A stretch of 38,326 nt of DNA from Candidatus Syntropharchaeum sp. (GTDB taxonomy: Archaea > Halobacteriota > Syntropharchaeia > Syntropharchaeales > Syntropharchaeaceae): assembly GCA_026134025.1 (NCBI GenBank), contig JAOQII010000014.1:1-38326 (forward strand), given 5' to 3'. Position 1 is the first letter of the stretch, and every line of letters begins with the position of its first letter. The notes beneath the pieces were generated by a model. That model searched no databases and was not told the origin of the DNA. It saw nothing but the letters and a program-made list of their open reading frames with translations. Position numbers and translations under genes: made by a program. Positions 1,972-29,240 of this stretch are shown piece after piece.

Positions 1972-2814
1972 ATGACCAAACAGCGAATCCACACTACCAT
2001 CGATGCAGAGGCATACCACATCCTTCAGAAGTATGAGGAGCAGTGGGGTGGGAAAAATGCCGTCCTTGAGGCTGCCCTGAAGGGACTTGATCAGGGACAT
2101 AAAGCACAGCTTGATATAAAAATTTATGAGAAGATCGGGCGCAAGAGCACAGGCATACCAACACTCGACCAGATGATAGAGGGTGGAATCCCAAAAAATT
2201 TTGTTGTTATCGTGACCGGAACTCCCGGGACAGGCAAGACGACTTTTGGGATGCAATTTCTCGTTGAAGGGATAAAAAATGGTGAGCGGGGCATCTTTTT
2301 CTCCTTTGAAGAGGATTCTGAGCAACTTGCAAATCACTGCCTCCGCTTCGGGTGGAACCTGCGAGAATACGCAGAGAAAGGGCAGCTTCTGATATACGGG
2401 TTATCGATGATCACGGTGAACGATGTGATCGAAGTAGTGCAAGATTATAAGCCATCAAGAATCGTGATAGACTCGATCAACCTCTTAACAGACTTTGGTT
2501 CATCGAATAAACTGAGGGAAAACTCGATGCTGAGAAATCTCTTAAAGCTTCTGAAACGTGAACGTGTCACGACAATCATCACAACCGAGAAGACACATGG
2601 ACTCGAGAAGAAAGCCTTCGATCAGTTCGATTTTATGGGGGATGGTCTGATCTTCCTCGATCGCACAACGGTCAATGATATGGATGTTTTTCTTATCAAA
2701 GTTCAGAAGATGAGGGGCACGAAGATCAACGGGCAGACGAAGGTCTTTGAGATGACAGATCAGGGAATCGTTGTATCTCTCGATTTCAGCCCAGGAATCT
2801 TTGATATTAAGTGA
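1972..2814 (+). CDS. KaiC-like RecA-superfamily ATPase with N-terminal RHH-like segment
   Basis: A 280-residue single-domain KaiC/RadA-like ATPase. Residues about 83-90 are the Walker A loop (GTPGTGKT). An FSFEED motif with paired glutamates follows near residue 111, and a Walker B strand (RIVIDS) near residue 164. The domain opens with the typical STGIPTLDQMIEGGIP. The first 45 residues (TKQRIHTTIDAEAYHILQKY and a helix) do not belong to the ATPase and resemble a ribbon-helix-helix DNA-binding unit. Archaeal single KaiC-domain proteins often act in signalling, but this one's partner is unknown. A GGGGA ribosome site precedes the ATG and an AT-rich promoter region lies upstream. Its 3' end overlaps argH on the other strand by 8 bases. 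Confidence 0.85.
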   Translation: MTKQRIHTTIDAEAYHILQKYEEQWGGKNAVLEAALKGLDQGHKAQLDIKIYEKIGRKSTGIPTLDQMIEGGIPKNFVVIVTGTPGTGKTTFGMQFLVEGIKNGERGIFFSFEEDSEQLANHCLRFGWNLREYAEKGQLLIYGLSMITVNDVIEVVQDYKPSRIVIDSINLLTDFGSSNKLRENSMLRNLLKLLKRERVTTIITTEKTHGLEKKAFDQFDFMGDGLIFLDRTTVNDMDVFLIKVQKMRGTKINGQTKVFEMTDQGIVVSLDFSPGIFDIK

Positions 2815-4141
2815 GGGATAACGCTTTCTTGCGCTTATCTATCATTCTTCTGACTTCACGCGGGGATGGTCCACCTGTAACCTTCCTTCGATCGACGCTC
2901 AACGCAGGATCGAGAGCTTCTTTCAACGTTGCTTCATCGAGTTCTTCAATTCTTCTCCCCTCGCTAATAACCTCTCCAACGATTTTATGAGCGGTCCTGA
3001 ACGGAATTCCACACTCTCTAACGAGCGTGTCTGCAAGATCAGTCGCCATTAGATCACCAAGATCAAGTTTCGCTCGCATCGACTCAGATTTTACCCGCAT
3101 ACCTCCGATCATCTTCGTCATTCCACGAAGCGAGCTTTTTGTTATCGTTACTGCACTAAGGAGGTGTGGTGTAAGTTCCTGAAGGTCTCGATTGTAGCTC
3201 ATCGGCATAGCTTTCATGATCGTTAACACTGCTGTAAGATCGCCATAAACCGTGCCGGTCTTTGCCCTGATAAGCTCTGCAAGGTCTGGATTCTTTTTTT
3301 GAGGCATTATTGAACTTGTGCTCGTGACAGCATCGTCAAGTTCGATCATATCAAACCCCTGGCTACTCCAGAGTATTAACTCCTCAGCGAGCCTTGATAG
3401 GTGCATCATTATAATGGAAAATACCGATATTGCTTCTATCAGAAAATCTCTCGCAGAAACAGCATCCATCGAGTTCTCAACAAGCCCCTCGAACCCTAAA
3501 AGCTCCATAGTCCTATCACGATCGATAGGGAAACTTGTAGATGCAAAAGCGGCAGCGCCCAGGGGTGAAAGGTTTGTGCGGTGGTAGAGTGCATCGAGCC
3601 GCTCAAGGTCACGGCTGAGCGCATCAAAATGGGCGAGGAGGTGGTGTGCAAGGGTTGTTGGCTGGGCAAACTGGAGGTGTGTGAAGCCTGGCATCAGTGT
3701 CTCCACATTCTCCTCAGCCCGTTTAAGAATCGTTCCTCTTAAATCGTTGAGATAATCGATTAACTTAAGTTCCTCCCTTCTAAGTGCGATCCTGATGCAC
3801 GTTGCAACCTCATCATTTCGAGATCTTGCTGTATGCATCCGCCCACCAGCCTCCTCACCGATAAGCTCAATCAGCTTCGATTCCACACACGCGTGGATAT
3901 CCTCATAAGCTTCAAGCTCCAGAATCTCAATCCCGCCCTCTTCAATCTGTTTTAACCCATCGAGGATTATAGATGCTTCCTTCTCGCTTATAATCTTATT
4001 TTCAAGGAGCATCCTGGTATGAGCTTTATCTACCAGGAGATCGGCATCAAATATCCATCGATCAGCATCCAGAGATTGGAGAAACTCAAGGCTTGATTCA
4101 TCAATCTGCTTTTTTAGTCTTCCACGACGGATGATATCCAT
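2807..4141 (-). CDS. argH: Argininosuccinate lyase
   Basis: Cleaves argininosuccinate to arginine and fumarate, the last step of arginine synthesis, in the cytoplasm. The 444 residues match full length. The fumarase/aspartase superfamily signature is present (SSIMPQKKNPD near residue 280), as are the HTARSRNDEV segment and the TSFPIDRD region. It is the last gene of the run mcrB-mcrG-Cys-rich protein-argH, 34 bases after the Cys-rich gene. No clear ribosome site is seen before the ATG, but the upstream gap is AT-rich and may carry a second promoter. Placing a housekeeping arginine gene behind mcr genes probably reflects chance linkage. Confidence 0.95.
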   Translation of the reverse strand: MDIIRRGRLKKQIDESSLEFLQSLDADRWIFDADLLVDKAHTRMLLENKIISEKEASIILDGLKQIEEGGIEILELEAYEDIHACVESKLIELIGEEAGGRMHTARSRNDEVATCIRIALRREELKLIDYLNDLRGTILKRAEENVETLMPGFTHLQFAQPTTLAHHLLAHFDALSRDLERLDALYHRTNLSPLGAAAFASTSFPIDRDRTMELLGFEGLVENSMDAVSARDFLIEAISVFSIIMMHLSRLAEELILWSSQGFDMIELDDAVTSTSSIMPQKKNPDLAELIRAKTGTVYGDLTAVLTIMKAMPMSYNRDLQELTPHLLSAVTITKSSLRGMTKMIGGMRVKSESMRAKLDLGDLMATDLADTLVRECGIPFRTAHKIVGEVISEGRRIEELDEATLKEALDPALSVDRRKVTGGPSPREVRRMIDKRKKALSLT

Positions 4142-4175: not shown

Positions 4176-4556
4176 TTACTCCTCTATCGTAAGCGGGAAT
4201 CCACTATCCTTGTAGATCTCCTCGAGCTTTGCCTTCTTCTCATCATTTGGTATGTAGTCCACACAGAGAAGGATATCCTCGCCCATTGTTGCGGTCTTTG
4301 CGCAGGTATAGGACGTCCCAAACTCGCCCTTCGTCTCGACGAAGAACTTGCAATCCTCGCACCTGAATATTGGCTGAAAAGCCTCACAGGTTCGGTCGAG
4401 CGGATCAGGTATATCGATCTTCATCTTGCCCCGAGTCTGTTTGAAGATTCGATCACACCCATTCTCAACGCTGTAATAATCACAGATAAGACAGGGACGT
4501 TTATTCTCCTCAAGGTACAGCTTCAGGGGGTAGACATCACCAAGTTTTATAGGCAT
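4176..4556 (-). CDS. Eight-cysteine small protein co-transcribed with mcrBG
   Basis: A 126-residue soluble, acidic protein with eight cysteines at residues 22, 25, 34, 57, 66, 69, 85 and 98. They form two similar modules, CxxC-x8-C-x22-C and CxxC-x15-C-x12-C, each beginning with CxxC followed by an aromatic pair (CDYY, CKFF). This suggests an internal duplication binding two metal centres, iron-sulfur or zinc. It starts 38 bases after mcrG behind a good GGAG ribosome site, so it is almost certainly co-translated with mcrBG. It is neither McrC nor McrD. From memory, the cysteine layout and the C-x2-C-K-x-F motif resemble HiPIP-like small subunits of glycyl-radical enzymes (HpdC, BssB); I could not align them. 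Function is unknown; an accessory, electron-transfer or assembly role for the Mcr-type enzyme is a guess. Confidence 0.85.
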   Translation of the reverse strand: MPIKLGDVYPLKLYLEENKRPCLICDYYSVENGCDRIFKQTRGKMKIDIPDPLDRTCEAFQPIFRCEDCKFFVETKGEFGTSYTCAKTATMGEDILLCVDYIPNDEKKAKLEEIYKDSGFPLTIEE

Positions 4557-4594
4557 TACAAAGGCTCCTAAAATATAAAAAGGTAGAAAAATAT

Positions 4595-5407
4595 CTACCT
4601 TGGGCAGTCAATGATCTCGGTCAGTTCTGGGTTGAACCCACCGGTGATCCTTCCTCTGCTGTACCTCGCAAGGACTGTCAGGATCTCTGTACGGGACTTG
4701 TACGCTGCAACATCCCAACGATATGTACAGTCGTGTCCTCTTGCTTCTCGCTCAGTAAGTGGTCGCCCGATTGGAATTGGATTGTCAAGAACCTCTGCGT
4801 GCATGTTCTTGATATACTCAACCTCACCTGTATCCTTGTTGAGCTTGTATCGACGCCTGGCATCGAACATCAATCCATCCTCATCAAGCCTCAACGAGTG
4901 GCCGTGCACTGTGATACCTCGAATCGCATTCCTTGCAGGGTCATAGACCTCGGTCTCCAGCAACCACTTCGCCGCACCTTCGATATCACGCTCACGCTGC
5001 TCGAGTAGCTGCCGGCCTGAGTAGACCATCACATCACACCCTCTCAGCCTCGACATGTACAGTCGGGGTCTGAGCCATGGGGCCATCGGCGGGTAGAAGA
5101 TCGAATCTGCGAACTGGATATACCTGATTCGATCACCAGCTCTTGCGCCAGGGGTCGGCTCGACAATACTCTTCACAGGATCATACTTTTCTACAAGCTC
5201 ATCCAAAGGAGGGTGAACACTCACATAAGACTCACCCTTAAATCTGTGGCCTAAGAGGAGTACGATGTTATCATCAGGGATCGACCTGAACTTCGCAAGT
5301 TTCTTCGTTGGATCTGTCGCTTTTCTCCTCCTGTCGGATACCTTGTCAGCACCAGGATACACCTGTGGCTTATACTTTGCTTTCTTTGCCCTTCTTGGTC
5401 TCGCCAT
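4595..5407 (-). CDS. mcrG: Methyl/alkyl-coenzyme M reductase subunit gamma
   Basis: Gamma subunit of the F430-containing reductase that makes or activates methane, or activates larger alkanes in divergent forms. The protein is 270 residues, slightly longer than usual. Family features are the N-terminal YKPQVYPG, the LLGHRFKGESYVSVHPPLDE stretch near residue 50, and the RLRGCDVMVYSGRQLLE region. Its start codon lies directly after the mcrB stop, so the two are translationally coupled. Methanogen operons usually run mcrBDCGA; here mcrD and mcrC are missing and no mcrA follows. The extra basic N-terminus and altered spacing suggest a divergent alkyl-CoM reductase type; which alkane it acts on cannot be told from this subunit. 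Confidence 0.95.
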   Translation of the reverse strand: MARPRRAKKAKYKPQVYPGADKVSDRRRKATDPTKKLAKFRSIPDDNIVLLLGHRFKGESYVSVHPPLDELVEKYDPVKSIVEPTPGARAGDRIRYIQFADSIFYPPMAPWLRPRLYMSRLRGCDVMVYSGRQLLEQRERDIEGAAKWLLETEVYDPARNAIRGITVHGHSLRLDEDGLMFDARRRYKLNKDTGEVEYIKNMHAEVLDNPIPIGRPLTEREARGHDCTYRWDVAAYKSRTEILTVLARYSRGRITGGFNPELTEIIDCPR

Positions 5408-6790
5408 TTAGATCTCCCCCTTGACCGACTCTGCAGCCTCTGCAACCTTCTCAAGTGGGTTCTGGAAGATTGGGAGGTTGTCTGCGAGCGTGTAGTAGAG
5501 CCCTGATGTGACACTCGGACGGAATATCTGAGAACCCGCATCCAGACACATACCTGCAACGACGCACGGGGTCAAGAAGCCTGAGGTGTGTCTCACAATC
5601 ACATGATCCATCGTGAACGCACCGGGTCCTGCACCACCATAGAGTCCATGTGTGTAGAAACCAAATCCAAGCCCGGTTCCCATAACCCTTCCTGCATCCG
5701 GGTCTGGTAAACCACCGCCCTCAAATGCGATGTAGTCGTTCCATGAACCCAGAACCGCACTTGTATTCTGTGCAGCCCTCATCGCACCGCAGTTGACGAT
5801 AACAGCACATAAAAGTGTTGCAACACCATAAGCGTTCCACATCGCGTAGTCCTTCAGCCCATATAGCTTGTAACCGGATGGCTGGACAAACGGATAACGG
5901 TTGGGTGGCTCTTCAATAACCCCATTCGCCAGCGCTCGTTCCATCAGTGTGAGAACGACATCATAAGCAGTTCCCTTCGCGTTTTCCTTCAGCATACTGA
6001 GCACAAAATTATTGGCATTGAAGCCCTGATATGCCGATCCAAGCAGCTGTGCTCGCTCATACCATCCAACAGAGTTGCCCATCTCGGCCTGGGCACCCTG
6101 CTCGAAGATCGTTGCCAATGCAACAGCCTCCAACGTTCTGTTGTTTCCGAGCGCAACGACGTGATTGATCATGAATGACTTAAACCCTGTCCCAAGACCT
6201 TCAAGGATTGAGGGAACTTTCATGAGGGTTGATACCGGATTACCCGAGTTTGGTCCTACATACTGCGGATATCTCCCATGCAGGCAGTTCTTCAGCATTC
6301 CCATCCTGTATGGACGATCAAGTGGGTTGTCAATTCCGTATTTCTTTGCGATTATCTGCGCAAGTGCAACACTCACTCGCGTGAATGCAGGTGAGTAATC
6401 TGCAGATCGCCTGAGAAGTTCTTCTGAAAGCTGAACCACAAGGAGTGATCCACCTTCAAGTTCGATGATGTTTGTATCGTCCCCTTCTTTGATCTGGAGC
6501 AGCTTTTTAAGTTCTTCTGCGATCTCCTCTGAGTCTTCAACAAGGTCGAGATCAAGGCCATACCATGGCATCTTTATCTCATCCTGGCCGACCGTTGAAG
6601 TCCAGCCGGTACGACCGTTCCTCAACATCTCCTCCAGCTTGCCGAGATCTACGATTCCTGTCCGCTTCAGCGTCATATACATCTCAGCCATGTAGGGGTT
6701 CCTGTATGGATGAAGCGCCTCGATAGGGATATTTTCTGCGAGAACTTTTCCCTCATCATTATACAGGTCAATTTTATCTTCATATTTCAT
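5408..6790 (-). CDS. mcrB: Methyl/alkyl-coenzyme M reductase subunit beta
   Basis: Beta subunit of the same enzyme, 460 residues, near the usual 430-450. It begins with the typical KYEDKIDLYNDEG and contains the conserved glycine-rich active-site segment (GRVMGTGLGF, FYTHGLYGGAGPG). The Phe and Tyr that in M. marburgensis line the substrate channel (Phe361, Tyr367 by motif) appear kept. However, a DPDAG segment replaces the common FFG-type sequence just before GRVMG, which points to a divergent clade. The ATG at 6790 is preferred over a TTG at 6805 because GGAGGAG sits directly upstream of it and the family starts there. A strong TATA box lies about 50 bases upstream. Confidence 0.95.
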   Translation of the reverse strand: MKYEDKIDLYNDEGKVLAENIPIEALHPYRNPYMAEMYMTLKRTGIVDLGKLEEMLRNGRTGWTSTVGQDEIKMPWYGLDLDLVEDSEEIAEELKKLLQIKEGDDTNIIELEGGSLLVVQLSEELLRRSADYSPAFTRVSVALAQIIAKKYGIDNPLDRPYRMGMLKNCLHGRYPQYVGPNSGNPVSTLMKVPSILEGLGTGFKSFMINHVVALGNNRTLEAVALATIFEQGAQAEMGNSVGWYERAQLLGSAYQGFNANNFVLSMLKENAKGTAYDVVLTLMERALANGVIEEPPNRYPFVQPSGYKLYGLKDYAMWNAYGVATLLCAVIVNCGAMRAAQNTSAVLGSWNDYIAFEGGGLPDPDAGRVMGTGLGFGFYTHGLYGGAGPGAFTMDHVIVRHTSGFLTPCVVAGMCLDAGSQIFRPSVTSGLYYTLADNLPIFQNPLEKVAEAAESVKGEI

Positions 6791-6837
6791 AGAAATCTCC
6801 TCCAAGTTTTGATTTCAATGTAGGTATAAGCTCATAG

Positions 6838-6845
6838 TATATAAA
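6838..6845 (-). promoter_or_regulatory. TATA box of the mcrBG operon
   Basis: A perfect archaeal TATA element (TTTATATA on the minus strand) lies about 50 bases before the mcrB ATG, predicting transcription start near 6816 and a leader of about 26 bases containing the GGAGGAG ribosome site. The gap back to the wHTH gene is about 105 bases and could hold an operator, but no obvious palindrome was seen. Confidence 0.6.
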
Positions 6846-6910: not shown

Positions 6911-7696
6911 TCACCTCTTTATATCGACAAACTCATACCCGATCGCATCCTCACCCAACCGCTTGAGAAGCGACGGAAGTTCACTCTCCACACAGACGAT
7001 TACAGGAGATATACCCCTTCGAGCAGCCTCCACAACCACCGACTTGACCCCATAGTTGATCTGTGACGTTACATCGATCTCGCTGAGTGCAACAAATGCC
7101 TCGATCCCAATTGCACAGACGATATCCGCTCCCTCTACAGCTTTTCTCAGTGCATCAGATGATATACATTTTGAGCCGCCATCCTGCACCTGTGGGATCG
7201 GGCAGATCGTAACTTTACCCACCTCAAGCGATATTATTCCGCTTATATCCGAGATGCCAACATCCTTTCCCGCTTTTGCACTTGTAACTACAGTGGCATG
7301 TGCAAAACCCTCTCTCTCACCTTTCGAGGCGTGAAGGATGCCATCTTCCATGAAGAGCGAGACCTGATCCCCCTCTCTGAGATCCTCATCTGCCACCGCT
7401 GCCCAGACAGAAATATTCGTTACGATATTATTGATATGATCGAGATATTCCTCCATCTCCTTCCCAACAGCGAGTACAAAGTTCACACCTTCTCTTGTGA
7501 CAACGTACATCTTCTTTCCATCAGTATGAATCAACCCTTCTTCCACCATCTCCTTGACATACTCAGAGACTGCCTGGGGTGTGATATCCATCTTCGCTGC
7601 GATATCTTTCTGGCGGATCGTGGGCTGATGTTCCGCCACTTCTACCAGAATCTGGAATTTACTGGATACTTTCTTACTTTTTAATGCCTGTATCAT
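6911..7696 (-). CDS. Winged-helix transcriptional regulator with a large C-terminal sensor-like domain
   Basis: A 261-residue protein. Residues 1-80 form a winged helix of MarR/IclR style (RQKDIAAKMDITPQAVSEYV as recognition helix, then a TDGKKMYVVT wing). Residues about 95-261 form an alpha/beta domain with Gly/Ala-rich strands (IVCAIGIEAFVALSE, ISPVIVCVE) that looks like a ligand-binding or Rossmann-like unit. It starts one base after the stop of the ArsR-like gene and ends about 120 bases before mcrB, same strand. The family seems widespread in euryarchaeal methanogens, but I do not know a characterised member. The position makes it a natural candidate regulator of mcrBG, an inference from context only. 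Confidence 0.8.
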   Translation of the reverse strand: MIQALKSKKVSSKFQILVEVAEHQPTIRQKDIAAKMDITPQAVSEYVKEMVEEGLIHTDGKKMYVVTREGVNFVLAVGKEMEEYLDHINNIVTNISVWAAVADEDLREGDQVSLFMEDGILHASKGEREGFAHATVVTSAKAGKDVGISDISGIISLEVGKVTICPIPQVQDGGSKCISSDALRKAVEGADIVCAIGIEAFVALSEIDVTSQINYGVKSVVVEAARRGISPVIVCVESELPSLLKRLGEDAIGYEFVDIKR

Positions 7697-7697
7697 C

Positions 7698-8207
7698 TCA
7701 ACCCCCTGATATTATTTCTATTCTCTGTCCTTTCAGTAAAAGTTTTTTTGATCGCTTTACGATGGCTTTCAAAAGTATGGGAGGCACATCTTCTGAAATA
7801 GAAATGTTACTTATCGAGTCTTTTCCACTATTTATGCATGAGATTATATTATCCTCTATCGACCCGAACGCTTCTTCATCGATGAATGAGATCGATATGA
7901 TATCACCAAGTTCCTCCATCTCACACTGGAAATTGAGCCTGACTCTGGAATAAGAGGTAGCATACTCAACCTCAGGAGTCGCTCCAGCCTCAGGGATTCT
8001 CCATTTACTCTCCAGCAATCCGCTCTCTCGCAGAACATCAAGACTCTCGCCGATCTCTTCAGATTTAAGCTTCGCTTTTAGTTCTTCCTCTGTGCACCAC
8101 TTGGATGAGAGAAGATCGAATACCTGTTTATGTTTAGTGGATGTAAATATCTGGAGGAGCGGAACGAGATCTGGAAGATCATTGATGATCCTGACACGTT
8201 TTGCCAT
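7698..8207 (-). CDS. ArsR-like winged-helix regulator
   Basis: A 169-residue protein with an N-terminal helix-turn-helix (LLQIFTSTKHKQVFDLLSSK, then a CTEEEL recognition region and an ESGLLESKWR wing) and a C-terminal alpha/beta part ending in a Lys/Arg-rich stretch. It matches archaeal ArsR-related regulators in layout. It precedes and nearly touches the second wHTH gene, so the two form a regulator pair ahead of mcrBG. A TATA-like element about 26-36 bases upstream gives a predicted start almost at the ATG, so the message is nearly leaderless. Ligand and targets are unknown. Confidence 0.75.
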   Translation of the reverse strand: MAKRVRIINDLPDLVPLLQIFTSTKHKQVFDLLSSKWCTEEELKAKLKSEEIGESLDVLRESGLLESKWRIPEAGATPEVEYATSYSRVRLNFQCEMEELGDIISISFIDEEAFGSIEDNIISCINSGKDSISNISISEDVPPILLKAIVKRSKKLLLKGQRIEIISGG

Positions 8208-20386: not shown

Positions 20387-21244
20387 ATGGCTATAAATAA
20401 GGTTACAGTTCTGGGAGCGGGTCTCATGGGCAATGGGATCGCTCAGGTATGTGCCCAGGCAGGATATGAGGTTGTCATGAGGGATATCGAGGATCGCTTT
20501 GTTGAGAATGGGATGAACACGATCAAGAAGAACCTCGAGAAGAGTGTGAAGAAGGGGAAGATGAGTGAGGAGGATATGAAAGCAATCCTCGGGAGGCTCA
20601 CAGGCGTGGTCGATATGAAAGAAGCTATTAAAGATCCCGATCTTGTGATCGAAGCTGCCCCTGAGATCATGGATCTCAAGAAGAGTATTTTTGCAGAAGT
20701 CGATGAACTCGCACCTGAGAAGACTCTGCTCGCCTCAAACACATCAAGCCTCAGTGTAACAGAGATGGCATCCGCGACAAAACGCCCTGAAAAGTTCATC
20801 GGCATGCATTTCTTCAACCCGGTCCCAGTGATGAAGCTGGTTGAGCTGATAAGAGGTCATCTCACTTCAGATGAGACTGTGAAGACCATTGAGGAAGTCT
20901 CAGCAAAGATCGGAAAGATATCTGTTCTCTGCATAGATTCACCAGGTTTTATCGCAAACAGGATCGCACTCCCACTGCTCAACGAAGCGTATTTCACGCT
21001 CATGGAAGGGGTTGCGACAAAGGAGGATATTGACACCGCGATGAAACTCGGATACAACCACCCGATGGGTCCACTTGAGCTAACAGATCTCATAGGGCTT
21101 GATACAATCCTCAAGATACTTGATATATATTATGAGGAGTTTAAAGATCCAAAGTACAGAGCATGCCCACTCTTGAGAAAGATGGTAAGAGCAGGGCTTT
21201 ATGGACGAAAGACCGGAAGAGGATTCTACGACTACACGAAATAG
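20387..21244 (+). CDS. hbd: 3-hydroxyacyl-CoA dehydrogenase
   Basis: Oxidises 3-hydroxyacyl-CoA to 3-ketoacyl-CoA with NAD(P), or the reverse. The 285-residue single-domain form is near standard length. The N-terminal Rossmann motif is VLGAGLMGNGIAQ; the catalytic region includes SNTSSLSVTEMA, the active-site His in GMHFFNPVPVMKLVELI, and DSPGFIANRIALPLLNEA. The C-terminal helical domain has HPMGPLELTDLIGLD and ends in GRKTGRGFYDYT. It is a one-gene unit with its own promoter; no thiolase, crotonase or acyl-CoA dehydrogenase is adjacent. In an Mcr-bearing archaeon it suggests beta-oxidation of alkane-derived acyl-CoA, an inference. Confidence 0.95.
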   Translation: MAINKVTVLGAGLMGNGIAQVCAQAGYEVVMRDIEDRFVENGMNTIKKNLEKSVKKGKMSEEDMKAILGRLTGVVDMKEAIKDPDLVIEAAPEIMDLKKSIFAEVDELAPEKTLLASNTSSLSVTEMASATKRPEKFIGMHFFNPVPVMKLVELIRGHLTSDETVKTIEEVSAKIGKISVLCIDSPGFIANRIALPLLNEAYFTLMEGVATKEDIDTAMKLGYNHPMGPLELTDLIGLDTILKILDIYYEEFKDPKYRACPLLRKMVRAGLYGRKTGRGFYDYTK

Positions 21245-24306: not shown

Positions 24307-25311
24307 TCACCCCAGGATCGACGCTCTACCACGAACCGCTTTACGAAATTCGGCGTGAATCGATGCAACCTCCTTTAAGAGATTATCATCATGCTTGCTT
24401 AAATAATGTAGCTGGGATGCTGTTAAATCCGCACCTTTAAATTCTTTGTTTATCTTCCCCCAGTTTGATGTAATTTTGATCATCTCACCCCTATCAGGAA
24501 ATTCACGACACAAAAGATCTAAAGCCCGCATATCGTACGTTGCAAGTGCGAAGTTTGCGTAGGGAAGTGCATACATATTTGCATTAAACGCTACGGCAAC
24601 GCCACCCGCATCCCGCACAGCAGCGAGCATCTTGAAGTCTGTTATGCTATCTCCTACAACCATGATCTCCCCAGGCGTTAAACCAAGGTCTTTTGCAAAC
24701 TTTCCTGCAGCATCAACCTTCCTTGATCCCCCGATAACCTTCACGCGATCCAGTGGATTGCCATATCGGGTGTCTGGAAGGATCTTGAAGAAAAATCGGT
24801 CAAGAAGCTCCATTATAGAATCTTCATCATCCTTTTTTTCCTGAATCACTACCCAGAAATCAGCGATTAGCTCAAGCTCATCTTCTCCAAGATCGGAGGC
24901 TATTCTTTCAAGATCAAGCTCGGTGCAGGCGATATCCTCTGGTGGAACACCTAACTTAGCACCGATATTGTAAGCATGTTCACTGTATGAGGTTGAGATG
25001 ATCCTGATGTTCCATCCCTCCTCTCTCAAATGGGATATGAGCTCGGCTGCACCATCAACGATTCTGGCGGTGGATGAGACGTTGTAAATATCCTCAGAGG
25101 TTATACGATGGTAAATTAAGAACGGAGCGATTAAAGCGAGTGTATCACCAGGTTCATACCCCTCCCGTTCTTCAAGTGTGAGGAGGTCATCATATCTGCT
25201 TATCACCTCAAAGAACTCCCTCCCACCGGGAATTAACGAGATCACCTCGTAGGCATTATCCTGTGGAGAGAGAGGTCCTTCAAGGTCAAAACAGATAAGT
25301 CTTGGTTTCAT
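24307..25311 (-). CDS. HAD-superfamily hydrolase (EhaR-like)
   Basis: A 334-residue HAD protein. Motif I is CFDLEGPLSP near residue 7, with Glu in place of the second Asp, so phosphatase activity may be altered. Motif II is the RIISTSYSE strand near residue 103; motif IV includes GDSITDFKML near residue 220. From memory it resembles the archaeal group that includes EhaR of the Eha hydrogenase operon, but no hydrogenase gene is near. It overlaps porB by four bases, which ties it to the Por operon. The substrate is unknown. Confidence 0.75.
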   Translation of the reverse strand: MKPRLICFDLEGPLSPQDNAYEVISLIPGGREFFEVISRYDDLLTLEEREGYEPGDTLALIAPFLIYHRITSEDIYNVSSTARIVDGAAELISHLREEGWNIRIISTSYSEHAYNIGAKLGVPPEDIACTELDLERIASDLGEDELELIADFWVVIQEKKDDEDSIMELLDRFFFKILPDTRYGNPLDRVKVIGGSRKVDAAGKFAKDLGLTPGEIMVVGDSITDFKMLAAVRDAGGVAVAFNANMYALPYANFALATYDMRALDLLCREFPDRGEMIKITSNWGKINKEFKGADLTASQLHYLSKHDDNLLKEVASIHAEFRKAVRGRASILG

Positions 25312-26198
25312 TCCTCTATGTCGAGATCAAGACCATACTGCTCGGCATTTGCATCTGCCATTGCCTGGATCTGGCGTATCACCTCTGCCCCCTCATCGGT
25401 CTTGAAGAGGTGTGAGAACCTGCCCTGTGTTTTCAGGTAGTCCTCGACAGGCAGTCGTTTTGCCAGTCTCTTAACATTCACGACCTCACCATCAACAACC
25501 TCATAGAGTGGCCAAAGGCCAGTCAGTACCGCAAGTCTCATGACCTCAACGGTCTTTGAACTTGGATGTCTCCAGCCAGTACAGCAACTTGAGTGGAGGT
25601 GTATAAAGGAAGGGCCATCGTGATCCACCGCTTTTTTTACCTTATCCATGAGGTCCGCGGCATATCCAACTGATGCACTTGCCACATACCCAAGACCATG
25701 TGCCACAGCGATCGATACAAGATCTTTTTTTGGGTGGATCTCTCCATAAGAGACCTTTCCAGCAGGCGTTGTCGTTGCAGATGCACCGATCGGGGTCATA
25801 CTGCTTCGCTGGACCCCTGTGTTCATGTATGCCTCATTGTCATAGCAGATATAGGTAACATCATGCCCCCGCTCAAACATCCCTGAGAGTGCACCCATGC
25901 CGATATCAGCCGTGCCACCATCTCCTCCGATGGCAAGTACCTTCCCTTCATCTTTTCTTCCGAGTGCCTTGAGCCCTGCCTCTATCCCTGATGCAACCGA
26001 TGCTGCATTCTCGAAGAGCGAGTGGATCCATGGGACCCTCCAGCTTGTCTCAGGATATGGACTTGACACGATCTCAAGACATCCTGTCGGAGATACAACA
26101 AAGACGTTCTCACCTGTTGCCTCAAGTATGAGTTTGATTGCGATTGCCATCCCACAGCCTCCACAGGCACGATGCCCGCTTGCAAAGAGGTTCTTCAT
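25308..26198 (-). CDS. porB: 2-oxoacid (pyruvate):ferredoxin oxidoreductase subunit beta
   Basis: TPP-binding beta subunit of pyruvate:ferredoxin oxidoreductase. The protein is 296 residues. Cluster-ligating cysteines appear at HRACGGCGMA, and Cys at TGCLEI and CCTGW. The TPP/Mg motif is GGDGGTADIG ... YDNEAYMNTGVQRSS. It overlaps porA and the HAD gene by four bases each. In autotrophs the complex makes pyruvate from acetyl-CoA and CO2. The strong match to Por rather than Kor/Vor is by overall sequence. Confidence 0.92.
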   Translation of the reverse strand: MKNLFASGHRACGGCGMAIAIKLILEATGENVFVVSPTGCLEIVSSPYPETSWRVPWIHSLFENAASVASGIEAGLKALGRKDEGKVLAIGGDGGTADIGMGALSGMFERGHDVTYICYDNEAYMNTGVQRSSMTPIGASATTTPAGKVSYGEIHPKKDLVSIAVAHGLGYVASASVGYAADLMDKVKKAVDHDGPSFIHLHSSCCTGWRHPSSKTVEVMRLAVLTGLWPLYEVVDGEVVNVKRLAKRLPVEDYLKTQGRFSHLFKTDEGAEVIRQIQAMADANAEQYGLDLDIEE

Positions 26199-27358
26199 AG
26201 TAGCTCACCTCTCAATCCTATAAACTGCCATTCATCAGTTATACCACCGTCCATTGCCGATTTTGAGCGTTTAATGATCTCAAGGATGTCATCAGCCCTG
26301 ACATCCCTGCCACCAAGCCCGACCACGAATCCAAGCATCTTCAGATCGTTTATGTGGTTGTAGAGTGCTGCCTTAACATCTGTAAATAATGCCCCCTCAA
26401 ACCCTGCTGAGAAGTCCTTCTCAATAACAGCAACAACCTTCGCATCCTTCAATGCATCCCTGATCTCAACCAGCGGGAAGGGTCTGTAGCTTCGGATTTT
26501 GAGGATTCCGACGTTCTTTTCACGATCAACGACTTCTTTTATTGTTCCGATTATCGAGCCGAATGTGAGAAGTACAATCTCTGCACCATCAAGGTTGTAT
26601 CCCTCGATCAGACCACCATAATAACGCCCGAATGCTTTACCAAACTCATCTGCAACCTCTTTGATCTTTATTCGGGCACGATCCATCGCCTCATGCTGCA
26701 TGTACCTGAATTCCATGTACTTATCAGGTTCTGCAAAGCACCCGAAGCTCAATGGATTATCGACGCTTAAGAAATATTCGGGCTCGTAGGGTGGAAGAAA
26801 GTCATCTACCTCGATCTGCTCAGCAAGTACAACAGGTTCATAGGTGTGCGTTAAGATAAATCCATCTGCGCAGACCATCAGCGGGAGCATCACATCCTTA
26901 CTCTCAGCGATTTTGTAACCCTGAATCATTGCATCGTGGGCTTCCTGGATATCCTCAACATAGATCTGAATCCAGCCTGAATCCCTTGCACCGATCGTAT
27001 CCTGCTGATCGTTCCAGATGCTAAGCGGTGCTGACATTGCACGGTTCACAGCTGTCATAACAACAGGGAGCCGCATCCCTGAGACGTTGTACAGGACCTC
27101 CCACATCAGCGCGAGTCCCTGAGAAGTTGATGCAGAGTACGCCCTCGCCCCTACGGCAGATGCACCGAGTGCGACCGACATCGCGGAATGCTCAGAGTCA
27201 ACAGGTACAAACTCACACTCAAGTTCCCCATCTGCTACAAACTGCGCCAGATCCTCGACGATATGTGTCTGTGGTGTTATCGGGTATGCTGAAATAACAT
27301 CAGGTCTGCAGCGCTTGACTGCATGGGCTATCGCATAAGATCCTTCAACAACCTGCAT
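26195..27358 (-). CDS. porA: 2-oxoacid (pyruvate):ferredoxin oxidoreductase subunit alpha
   Basis: Alpha subunit, 387 residues, containing the pyrimidine-binding and domain II parts of the TPP site. It begins GSYAIAHAVKRCRPDVISAYPITPQTHI and has FVPVDSEHSAMSVALGA with the conserved Glu, then STSQGLALMWEVLYN and RPFPLVEIRDAL. Its ATG follows the porD stop directly and it overlaps porB by four bases. Confidence 0.94.
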   Translation of the reverse strand: MQVVEGSYAIAHAVKRCRPDVISAYPITPQTHIVEDLAQFVADGELECEFVPVDSEHSAMSVALGASAVGARAYSASTSQGLALMWEVLYNVSGMRLPVVMTAVNRAMSAPLSIWNDQQDTIGARDSGWIQIYVEDIQEAHDAMIQGYKIAESKDVMLPLMVCADGFILTHTYEPVVLAEQIEVDDFLPPYEPEYFLSVDNPLSFGCFAEPDKYMEFRYMQHEAMDRARIKIKEVADEFGKAFGRYYGGLIEGYNLDGAEIVLLTFGSIIGTIKEVVDREKNVGILKIRSYRPFPLVEIRDALKDAKVVAVIEKDFSAGFEGALFTDVKAALYNHINDLKMLGFVVGLGGRDVRADDILEIIKRSKSAMDGGITDEWQFIGLRGELL

Positions 27359-27619
27359 TTACTTCTCCTCCATCTCCATATAGATCGCATGCCCTGAACA
27401 TTCATTCGAGCAGATACCACACCCTTTGCAGTAGTCATAATCGAAATAAATCCCCTCTTTGTCACTGTATTTAACCGCTGACTCAGGACAGTATATAACA
27501 CAGTTGAAGCATCTGATGCACAGTTCAGGAGTAATTCGCGGTATCTCGGTTCTCCATCCACCGGTTAAGTTCACAACACTCGTTCCAGGATCTGCTATCG
27601 CTCCGATTCGAAGTTTCAC
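27359..27619 (-). CDS. porD: Pyruvate:ferredoxin oxidoreductase subunit delta (ferredoxin-like)
   Basis: An 86-residue electron-transfer subunit with two CxxCxxCxxxC motifs ([11 protein letters not shown] near residue 35 and [11 protein letters not shown] near residue 65), giving two [4Fe-4S] clusters. The first 30 residues ([11 protein letters not shown]) are typical of PorD. It overlaps porC by four bases; the porC-D-A-B order is the usual archaeal one. Confidence 0.94.
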
Positions 27620-28167
27620 GAAGATACCCCCTCGATCATAAGATCGTACGCCCTCTTGATCGCCTTTGCGTTATTATCACCTGCCACACCCCGGAACCTT
27701 TCCTTGACCGCATATATCACCGCATGAAGGCTCACCGCACCGGTCACACCAGCAAACGCACCCATCATCGTTGTATTCACGATCGGCCTTCCGATCATCT
27801 CCTTTGCGATTGCCGTTGCGTTTATCGTCCTCAGTGTAAAATTACCCTTCAATCCAAGCTCTTCGGGTGATTTTGGTGTATTTATGAGGAGAATACCACC
27901 ATCTTTGAGTCCACTCATAAAATCGACAACCCCAATGAGGCTTGCATCCTGCACCATCACGTAATCAGGCTCATAGACCTGTGATCTGATCCTGATCGGC
28001 TCATCATCCACTCTCATGAATGCCATAACCGGCGCACCTCTCCTCTCAGCACCAAAAGCTGGAAACGCCTGTGAATACTTCCTGTCCCTGAACGCAGCGA
28101 TCGCAAGAAGCTCTGCAGCAGTTACAGACCCCTGGCCACCCCGCCCATGAATTCGAAGCTCTTTCAT
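27616..28167 (-). CDS. porC: Pyruvate:ferredoxin oxidoreductase subunit gamma
   Basis: Gamma subunit, 183 residues, beginning [20 protein letters not shown], with [19 protein letters not shown] near residue 38 and [11 protein letters not shown]; these match the gamma family. It overlaps the FrhB-like gene upstream and porD downstream by four bases each, which is good evidence for one translated unit. Confidence 0.94.
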
Positions 28168-29216
28168 GCTGTCCTCTCTTTTTTGCGTCGTGAAAGACCT
28201 TTTATTAAATCTGTACCTGTGGTATGTCCGAGTTCGATGTAGCCATCTGCGATCGCATCCTCGAAGATCTTTGTACCGAGTTCACTCCTTCTGATCACGG
28301 TCGACCATCCATGATCCGACCCAACCGACCCAACCGAGATGTCAGATAACTCTGCTGTAAAGTCTGCGCAGTACCTGCATCCCTCTGCCACGTACTGGTC
28401 CAGATCCCTTATCAGAACCGAGTAGGTTGTATCCGCAGTCTCAACCCAGAAGCTGCCCTCGCGCATCGCAAACTTGACAACATCCTCAAGATCGACCTTC
28501 AAAACCTTCCTGACAAAACCGTTCATCAGGTCAGCGTATCTGAAGTTCTCCATGCAGAAAAGCCCTATCATGAGCTTCACCTTCTCGATCCCGATCTGAT
28601 ATGGTTCTGTTGACACCTGAATCTTTCTCAATGCCTGGATGTTACAGGGGAGCCCGACAAACCCGATATTCTCAAATCCGGCATCTATCGCTTCCTTTAC
28701 CCCAACGATAGCTGGCGAGAGCGAGTACTTTGAGCCAGTAACCTTCTTGACATCAGAAGAATCGGTCAAAACGACAGGTACAGGCTTCCATGGCGCCTCA
28801 TCGCTCAAACCTGTTGCAACCACGGCATCAAGCACCCCTTTATCGAGTGCATACCTGATCAGTCCCGTGACAACGCCCCCATCCTGAACACTTTTCTTTA
28901 ACGTCGGATCGTTTCCACGGGCTGCAAATATTCCGTTTTTTACCCCAATAAGCTCATCTGCCCTTGTTTGACCAAAAACTTCTTCCTCAATCGCTGGAAT
29001 ATCAATAAAAGATCGTGGACAGTGTGTGTAGCACATCCCGCAGAGTGCGTCATACTCAACAAGCTGTGGTACATCATCCACCGCTTCAATCCTGGGGCAG
29101 AACGCGATGCATGCCCCACAGAAACAGCATTTACCTTTTCCTATAACCTTTGATTCAAGTTCGACAAAACCCGATTCCATGAAGGTTGGTACCTTTATAC
29201 CCGCTACGACTTCCAT
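28164..29216 (-). CDS. FrhB/FpoF-type F420-binding iron-sulfur flavoprotein
   Basis: A 350-residue member of the F420 hydrogenase/dehydrogenase beta family. An N-terminal pair of cluster motifs ([13 protein letters not shown] and [10 protein letters not shown]) is followed by the flavin/F420 domain with [42 protein letters not shown] and a late Cys region ([22 protein letters not shown]). Such proteins move electrons between ferredoxin or a partner and F420. Because it overlaps porC by four bases it probably acts with the Por complex. I take the ATG at 29216; an in-frame TTG at 29237 is possible. A promoter-like element lies just upstream. Confidence 0.88.
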
Positions 29217-29240
29217 AATGGATGTAAAAACAGGCAAGTT

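Follow-up and report, generated by a model that had tools for sequence, protein, structure and literature searches.

Introduction

The subunits encoded by the canonical mcrBDCGA operon of methanogens are homologous to those of the gene set described here, and the nearest described counterparts of this set are alkyl-CoM reductases (ACRs) of alkane oxidizers. In Ca. Syntrophoarchaeum, three of the four sets of Ca. S. butanivorans and all four sets of Ca. S. caldarius are in operons, as stated in the relevant passage of PMC9081873. In each of the two Ca. Alkanophaga genomes, one acrA is located away from its acrB and acrG, and the passage that describes this refers to an earlier report of the same for Ca. 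Syntrophoarchaeum (PMC10322722). For the most expressed enzyme of Ca. S. butanivorans, two of the accessions given in the corresponding part of PMC9118554 are consecutive and the third is far away, a spacing that is expected of a split set.

Here, we describe an mcrB-mcrG pair in the window, by which is meant the whole stretch of DNA that was analysed, namely the complete 38,326-base contig C6 of genome G000. The assembly of this genome is a draft with 98 contigs and a total of 1.758 Mb, and its completeness is 92.5%. Compared with the canonical operon, the window set is without mcrC and mcrD, its mcrA is elsewhere, it falls in another clade, and its alpha subunit has GQE where canonical proteins have GYD. 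The set is like two described ACRs, the most expressed one of Ca. S. butanivorans and that of the third acr cluster of Ca. Alkanophaga; according to the passages on these enzymes in PMC10322722 and PMC9118554, both have acrA separate from acrB-acrG and both are related to presumed long-chain ACRs. The window enzyme is probably of the same type as these two, and G000 itself is probably Ca. S. butanivorans or a close relative; genome G001, of the same genus, would likewise be close to Ca. S. caldarius. The same passages go without mention of linked gene families.

It is very probable, judging from gene counts, trees and gene neighbourhoods, that the window pair encodes the beta and gamma subunits of a multi-carbon ACR, that the alpha subunit is encoded by an orphan gene on contig C12 (L013:8537-10420), and that further gene families are linked to this enzyme; this assessment covers the enzyme, the pairing and the genetic linkage. 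Since the split is already in print and the unusual beta-subunit motif of the window is a feature of a whole clade, the enzyme part is not new. The initial annotation of the locus was thus correct and mostly known, and what is added here is a group of genes linked specifically to one ACR type.

The mcrB-mcrG locus

Both genes are on the minus strand, intact and adjacent, and the first base of mcrG (acrG, gamma subunit; 4595..5407) directly follows the stop codon of mcrB (acrB, beta subunit; 5408..6790). Their products score well over the Pfam cut-offs: the beta subunit matches MCR_beta (1.4e-81, 274 bits) and MCR_beta_N (1.7e-38), and the gamma subunit matches MCR_gamma (1.4e-89, 300 bits); the trees described below agree with both assignments. 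For the beta subunit, the score of 410 bits is below the 516 bits that NCBIfam requires of its methane-type McrB equivalog, whereas the gamma subunit is above its own NCBIfam cut-off (283 vs 172 bits). By eye, the preferred start of mcrB is the ATG at 6790 with GGAGGAG ahead of it rather than the TTG at 6805 that opens the reading frame. Also by eye, a putative TATA-like element, TTTATATA, is located upstream of mcrB (6838..6845, minus strand), and a putative terminator-like short hairpin with a T run spans the mcrG stop codon (4581..4600, minus strand).

A Pfam scan of 37 window proteins, run at E<=1e-5 for 30 of them, detected no McrA, McrC or McrD, which bears out the initial annotation of a pair lacking these genes. 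Its gene order holds as well: the pair is followed, 38 bases past mcrG, by a gene for a 126-aa Cys-rich protein (Cys126; 4176..4556, minus strand) without a Pfam or NCBIfam match, and then by argH (2807-4141, minus strand).

Other genes of the window deserve mention in their own right. Upstream of mcrB and on the same strand are two regulator-like genes (6911-8207, minus strand), one encoding a winged helix with DUF7839 and the other an ArsR family protein; no close relative of either was labelled beside B-G in the other genomes compared. Genes for pyruvate-ferredoxin-oxidoreductase-like subunits adjoin an FrhB/FdhB-like gene (25308-29237, minus strand), and a 3-hydroxyacyl-CoA dehydrogenase gene (20387-21244, plus strand) is consistent with beta-oxidation.

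The alpha subunit and its phylogeny

Searches of the whole G000 genome turned up four copies each of McrA, McrB and McrG. Contigs C20 and C45 carry the order B-A-G, C34 carries B-G-A, C6 carries B-G, and C12 carries A alone, well within its 90 kb. Three sets are therefore complete, only the C12 alpha gene and the window pair are partnerless, and by these counts the former is the sole free partner for the latter.

Trees built separately by maximum likelihood for A (34 proteins), B (33) and G (33) point the same way. The clade that holds the G000 protein comprises 15 rows for A (support 100/100), 14 for B (100/100) and 14 for G (100/99), and in all three trees the canonical-type rows lie outside it. 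Its other members are from G025, G005, G002, the families f33 and f12, and five Helarchaeota sets. Tree labels such as ANME1, mgen, f12 and f33 were inferred here, and only the Helarchaeota names come from records. The initial annotation had suggested a non-methane ACR whose alpha subunit is encoded elsewhere, to be examined by placing McrB and McrG in a phylogeny and by finding an mcrA of matching phylogeny. Both proteins fall with the ACR clade, and the orphan alpha occupies the corresponding clade.

The three other sets of G000 pair one-to-one with sets of G001, a genome of the same genus, which is without the window ACR type and holds instead one very divergent set. This mcrB-G-A set (L114, contig C1, 5340-9851) encodes a 733-aa alpha subunit, and its branch is long in each of the A, B and G trees. 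As to the family labels, an assignment of f33 to Methanoliparia was dropped, as the second f33 set falls among the ACRs. The name Methanoliparia would better suit f12, in which G046 has an ACR set and a canonical-type set; f33 could be a lineage of Archaeoglobi.

The split recurs in G025 and G005, which belong to two other families of the class; in both genomes, the contig that carries A is not the one that carries B-G. The Helarchaeota ACRs (L048, L049 and their genomes) share the window clade in A, B and G. In contrast to the window set, they have A, B and G together in one locus.

Sequence signatures

All 14 B proteins of the window type carry an insertion of a single residue ahead of GLP, with PD(P/G/A)D after it, compared with 0/19 of the others. 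The DPDAG variant that the initial annotation reported in mcrB is present and is part of this clade-wide feature; it is not a peculiarity of the window gene, as the exact DPDAG occurs in 5/14 clade B proteins and the insertion in 14/14. The A proteins of the window type have GQE in place of the canonical GYD in 15/15 cases. The Tyr of GYD is presumably alpha-444 of M. marburgensis.

Gene families linked to the ACR

Three genes flank the orphan acrA: ORF374 (374-aa family; L013:6833-7957) and ORF181 (L013:7961-8506) on one side and ORF195 (195-aa protein; L013:10434-11021) on the other. None of the three has a Pfam match at E<=0.001. Thus, in G000, Cys126 is on the B-G side of the split and ORF374, ORF181 and ORF195 are on the A side. 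In G025, the genes beside B-G are Cys126 and ORF195, and those beside A are ORF374 and ORF181; in G005 ORF195 is also on the B-G side. All four families are clustered with B-G-A in the f33 genomes, and ORF374, ORF181 and ORF195 are so in G002. Because the families straddle the split differently among genomes, they tie the A and B-G loci together.

Linkage was counted within a radius of 3 kb around 39 MCR/ACR sets, 20 of the window type and 19 others. ORF195 is near 17/20 window-type sets, ORF374 near 14/20 and ORF181 near 9/20, and each is near 0/19 of the others. For Cys126 the counts are 4/20 and 0/19 (p 0.06), which is not significant, and the p-values of these counts are nominal, since the rows share ancestry and are not independent. 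ORF195 is missed at three sets: in G046 it is on another contig, in G002 the contig (C135) stops 253 bases past A, and in G019 ORF195 was not found and no window-type B-G was recovered. In many loci the gap between ORF195 and acrA or acrBG is only ~5-60 bases. ORF374 is absent beside the f12 sets, both new Asgard sets (see below) and one Helarchaeota set, and these absences count against one fixed module. The Helarchaeota ACRs have ORF195 near 5/5 sets and ORF374 near 4/5, and are without ORF181 and Cys126. The two smaller families are narrower in distribution than ORF195 and ORF374; relatives of Cys126 adjoin the window ACR type or are within 1.4 kb of it in G025, G213 and G222. None of the four families is beside the three other ACR sets of G000, and none was found in G001, with its four ACR/MCR-like sets.

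Several further arrangements were seen. G002 (64% complete) has several ACR copies with repeated ORF374-ORF181 pairs (L100, L112, L113, L177). A distant second ORF374 paralog is located elsewhere in six ORF374-bearing genomes (L108:6640-7761; relatives L115, L116). A U32-peptidase-like gene and DUF5402 are near the orphan acrA (L013:11052-12477) and also near the canonical-type mcr set of G046 (L173:3671-5030), and the U32-like gene alone is near an mcr set of G013 (L164:1927-2928).

Distribution in wider surveys

In a draw of 294 genomes of the phylum, 171 have some McrA match. The window AcrA type is present in nine, eight at E<1e-160 and one with a truncated gene (G064). ORF195 is found in 8/294, all among these nine, and ORF374 in 7/294, one of them weak. 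A profile search with ORF195 of 195 Asgard genomes gave 10 matching genomes, of which four were strong: two known Helarchaeota, G403 and G452. The latter two, found via the ORF195 profile alone, both have the order B-G-A-ORF195 with ORF195 directly past acrA, and their alpha subunits join the window clade (17 rows, 100/100). Among ten weak Asgard matches, six were scanned and 6/6 were SCP2 proteins, five above the Pfam cut-off. Distances between ORF195 proteins correlate with those between AcrA proteins (r 0.78, n=15, 0/9999 permutations). A scan of viral contigs with ORF195 gave no match.

Identity of ORF195 and ORF374

Several lines, each weak, in combination suggest that ORF195 is likely a remote relative of SCP2, a sterol-carrier protein. 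Pfam detects SCP2 in 3/12 family members (best 7.1e-4) and an alkylsulfatase C-terminal domain in 5/12 (best 0.02), neither of them in the G000 member. The best four matches of a PDB profile search are SCP2 proteins at a weak E of 0.015-0.026. An AlphaFold model built from two sequences is poor (pLDDT 42), and its top 21 Foldseek matches are SCP2 proteins or alkylsulfatases, all at E>=0.12. The profile likeness of ORF195 to the SCP2/alkylsulfatase C-terminal domain superfamily is remote, and ORF195 differs from that superfamily in its long N-terminal part, in forming an ACR-tied family of its own, and in falling under most thresholds.

For ORF374, neither Pfam nor PDB yielded a relative, and the pLDDT of 31 makes its structure model unusable; its family has conserved polar positions. 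The idea that it is a distant ORF195 was discarded (hhalign probability 0.7%). For ORF181, no PDB match was found.

Proposed role of the linked genes and alternatives

An alpha2beta2gamma2 enzyme would be formed in trans by the three chains, and it would convert an alkane and CoM-S-S-CoB to alkyl-CoM. One step further, the SCP2-like ORF195 might bind a hydrophobic chain at the ACR cleft and either deliver the alkane or remove the alkyl-CoM. We put forward this carrier step, taken by itself, only tentatively. The most expressed ACR of Ca. S. butanivorans was modelled with an open cleft, and hydrocarbon-carrier proteins are named as a possibility in that passage of PMC9118554; however, Ca. S. 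butanivorans oxidises butane, and for this gas there is little need of a lipid carrier. With similar reserve, it is possible that open-cleft ACRs in general use a dedicated SCP2-type carrier of hydrocarbon or alkyl-CoM (ORF195) together with ORF374 as an accessory family specific to ACRs. Such a module would have been passed down along with the enzyme in Syntrophoarchaeia, in other lineages of the phylum and in Asgard archaea, and it would solve the delivery of an oily substrate to a buried nickel site.

Other roles can be considered. The linked genes could be assembly, F430-loading or activation factors that replace McrD and McrC, with the SCP2-like fold used for docking and not for carrying alkane. 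The absence of mcrC and mcrD from the window and from the neighbours scanned fits such a role, as do the invariant C, C, C and H positions of ORF181 and the paired Cys of Cys126, and a passage of PMC9081873 treats McrC and McrD as accessory proteins and suggests that further ones await discovery. We regard it as rather unlikely, however, and the three other ACR sets of G000 manage without any of the four genes nearby. It is also unlikely that the open cleft of this ACR type is capped by ORF195 as a fourth structural subunit: its tight linkage to acrA or acrBG and the congruent trees would agree with such a putative contact, yet the structural model of ORF195 is unusable. Enzymes for the conversion of alkyl-CoM to acyl-CoA are not known, according to the passages concerned in PMC10322722 and PMC11543930, and ORF374, an uncharacterised family in which polar positions are conserved, might be sought among them along with ORF181 and Cys126. 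This is improbable, since all such organisms would be expected to need the step, but G001 is without any of the four families and f12 is without ORF374 beside its ACR.

The possibility that misassembly or rearrangement broke up an MCR operon of the methane type, of which the pair would be the remnant, is so improbable that we reject it. The draft state of the genome, with its many contigs, might lend it some credit, and misassembly was one of the caveats attached to the initial annotation; however, B-G and A are each inside contigs with unrelated flanks, the recurrence of the identical split in G025 and G005 shows that misassembly is not its cause in the window, and the A, B and G trees exclude canonical MCR.

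Implications

The route by which an alkane reaches the active site of an ACR is an open riddle, to which hydrocarbon-carrier proteins are one suggested answer in the relevant passage of PMC9118554. Our literature searches, which covered text passages of openly available journal papers, returned no report of ACR-linked gene families, and searches for SCP2 together with ACR, and for ACR accessory genes more widely, were without result. As ORF195 tracks one ACR type only, it provides a named, expressible candidate for alkane transport and thus a testable lead, and ORF374, a family for which no relatives were found, offers another target. Should the link be borne out, heterologous expression of this ACR may require the linked genes, and these genes could be used as markers of the ACR type when acrA and acrBG sit on different contigs.
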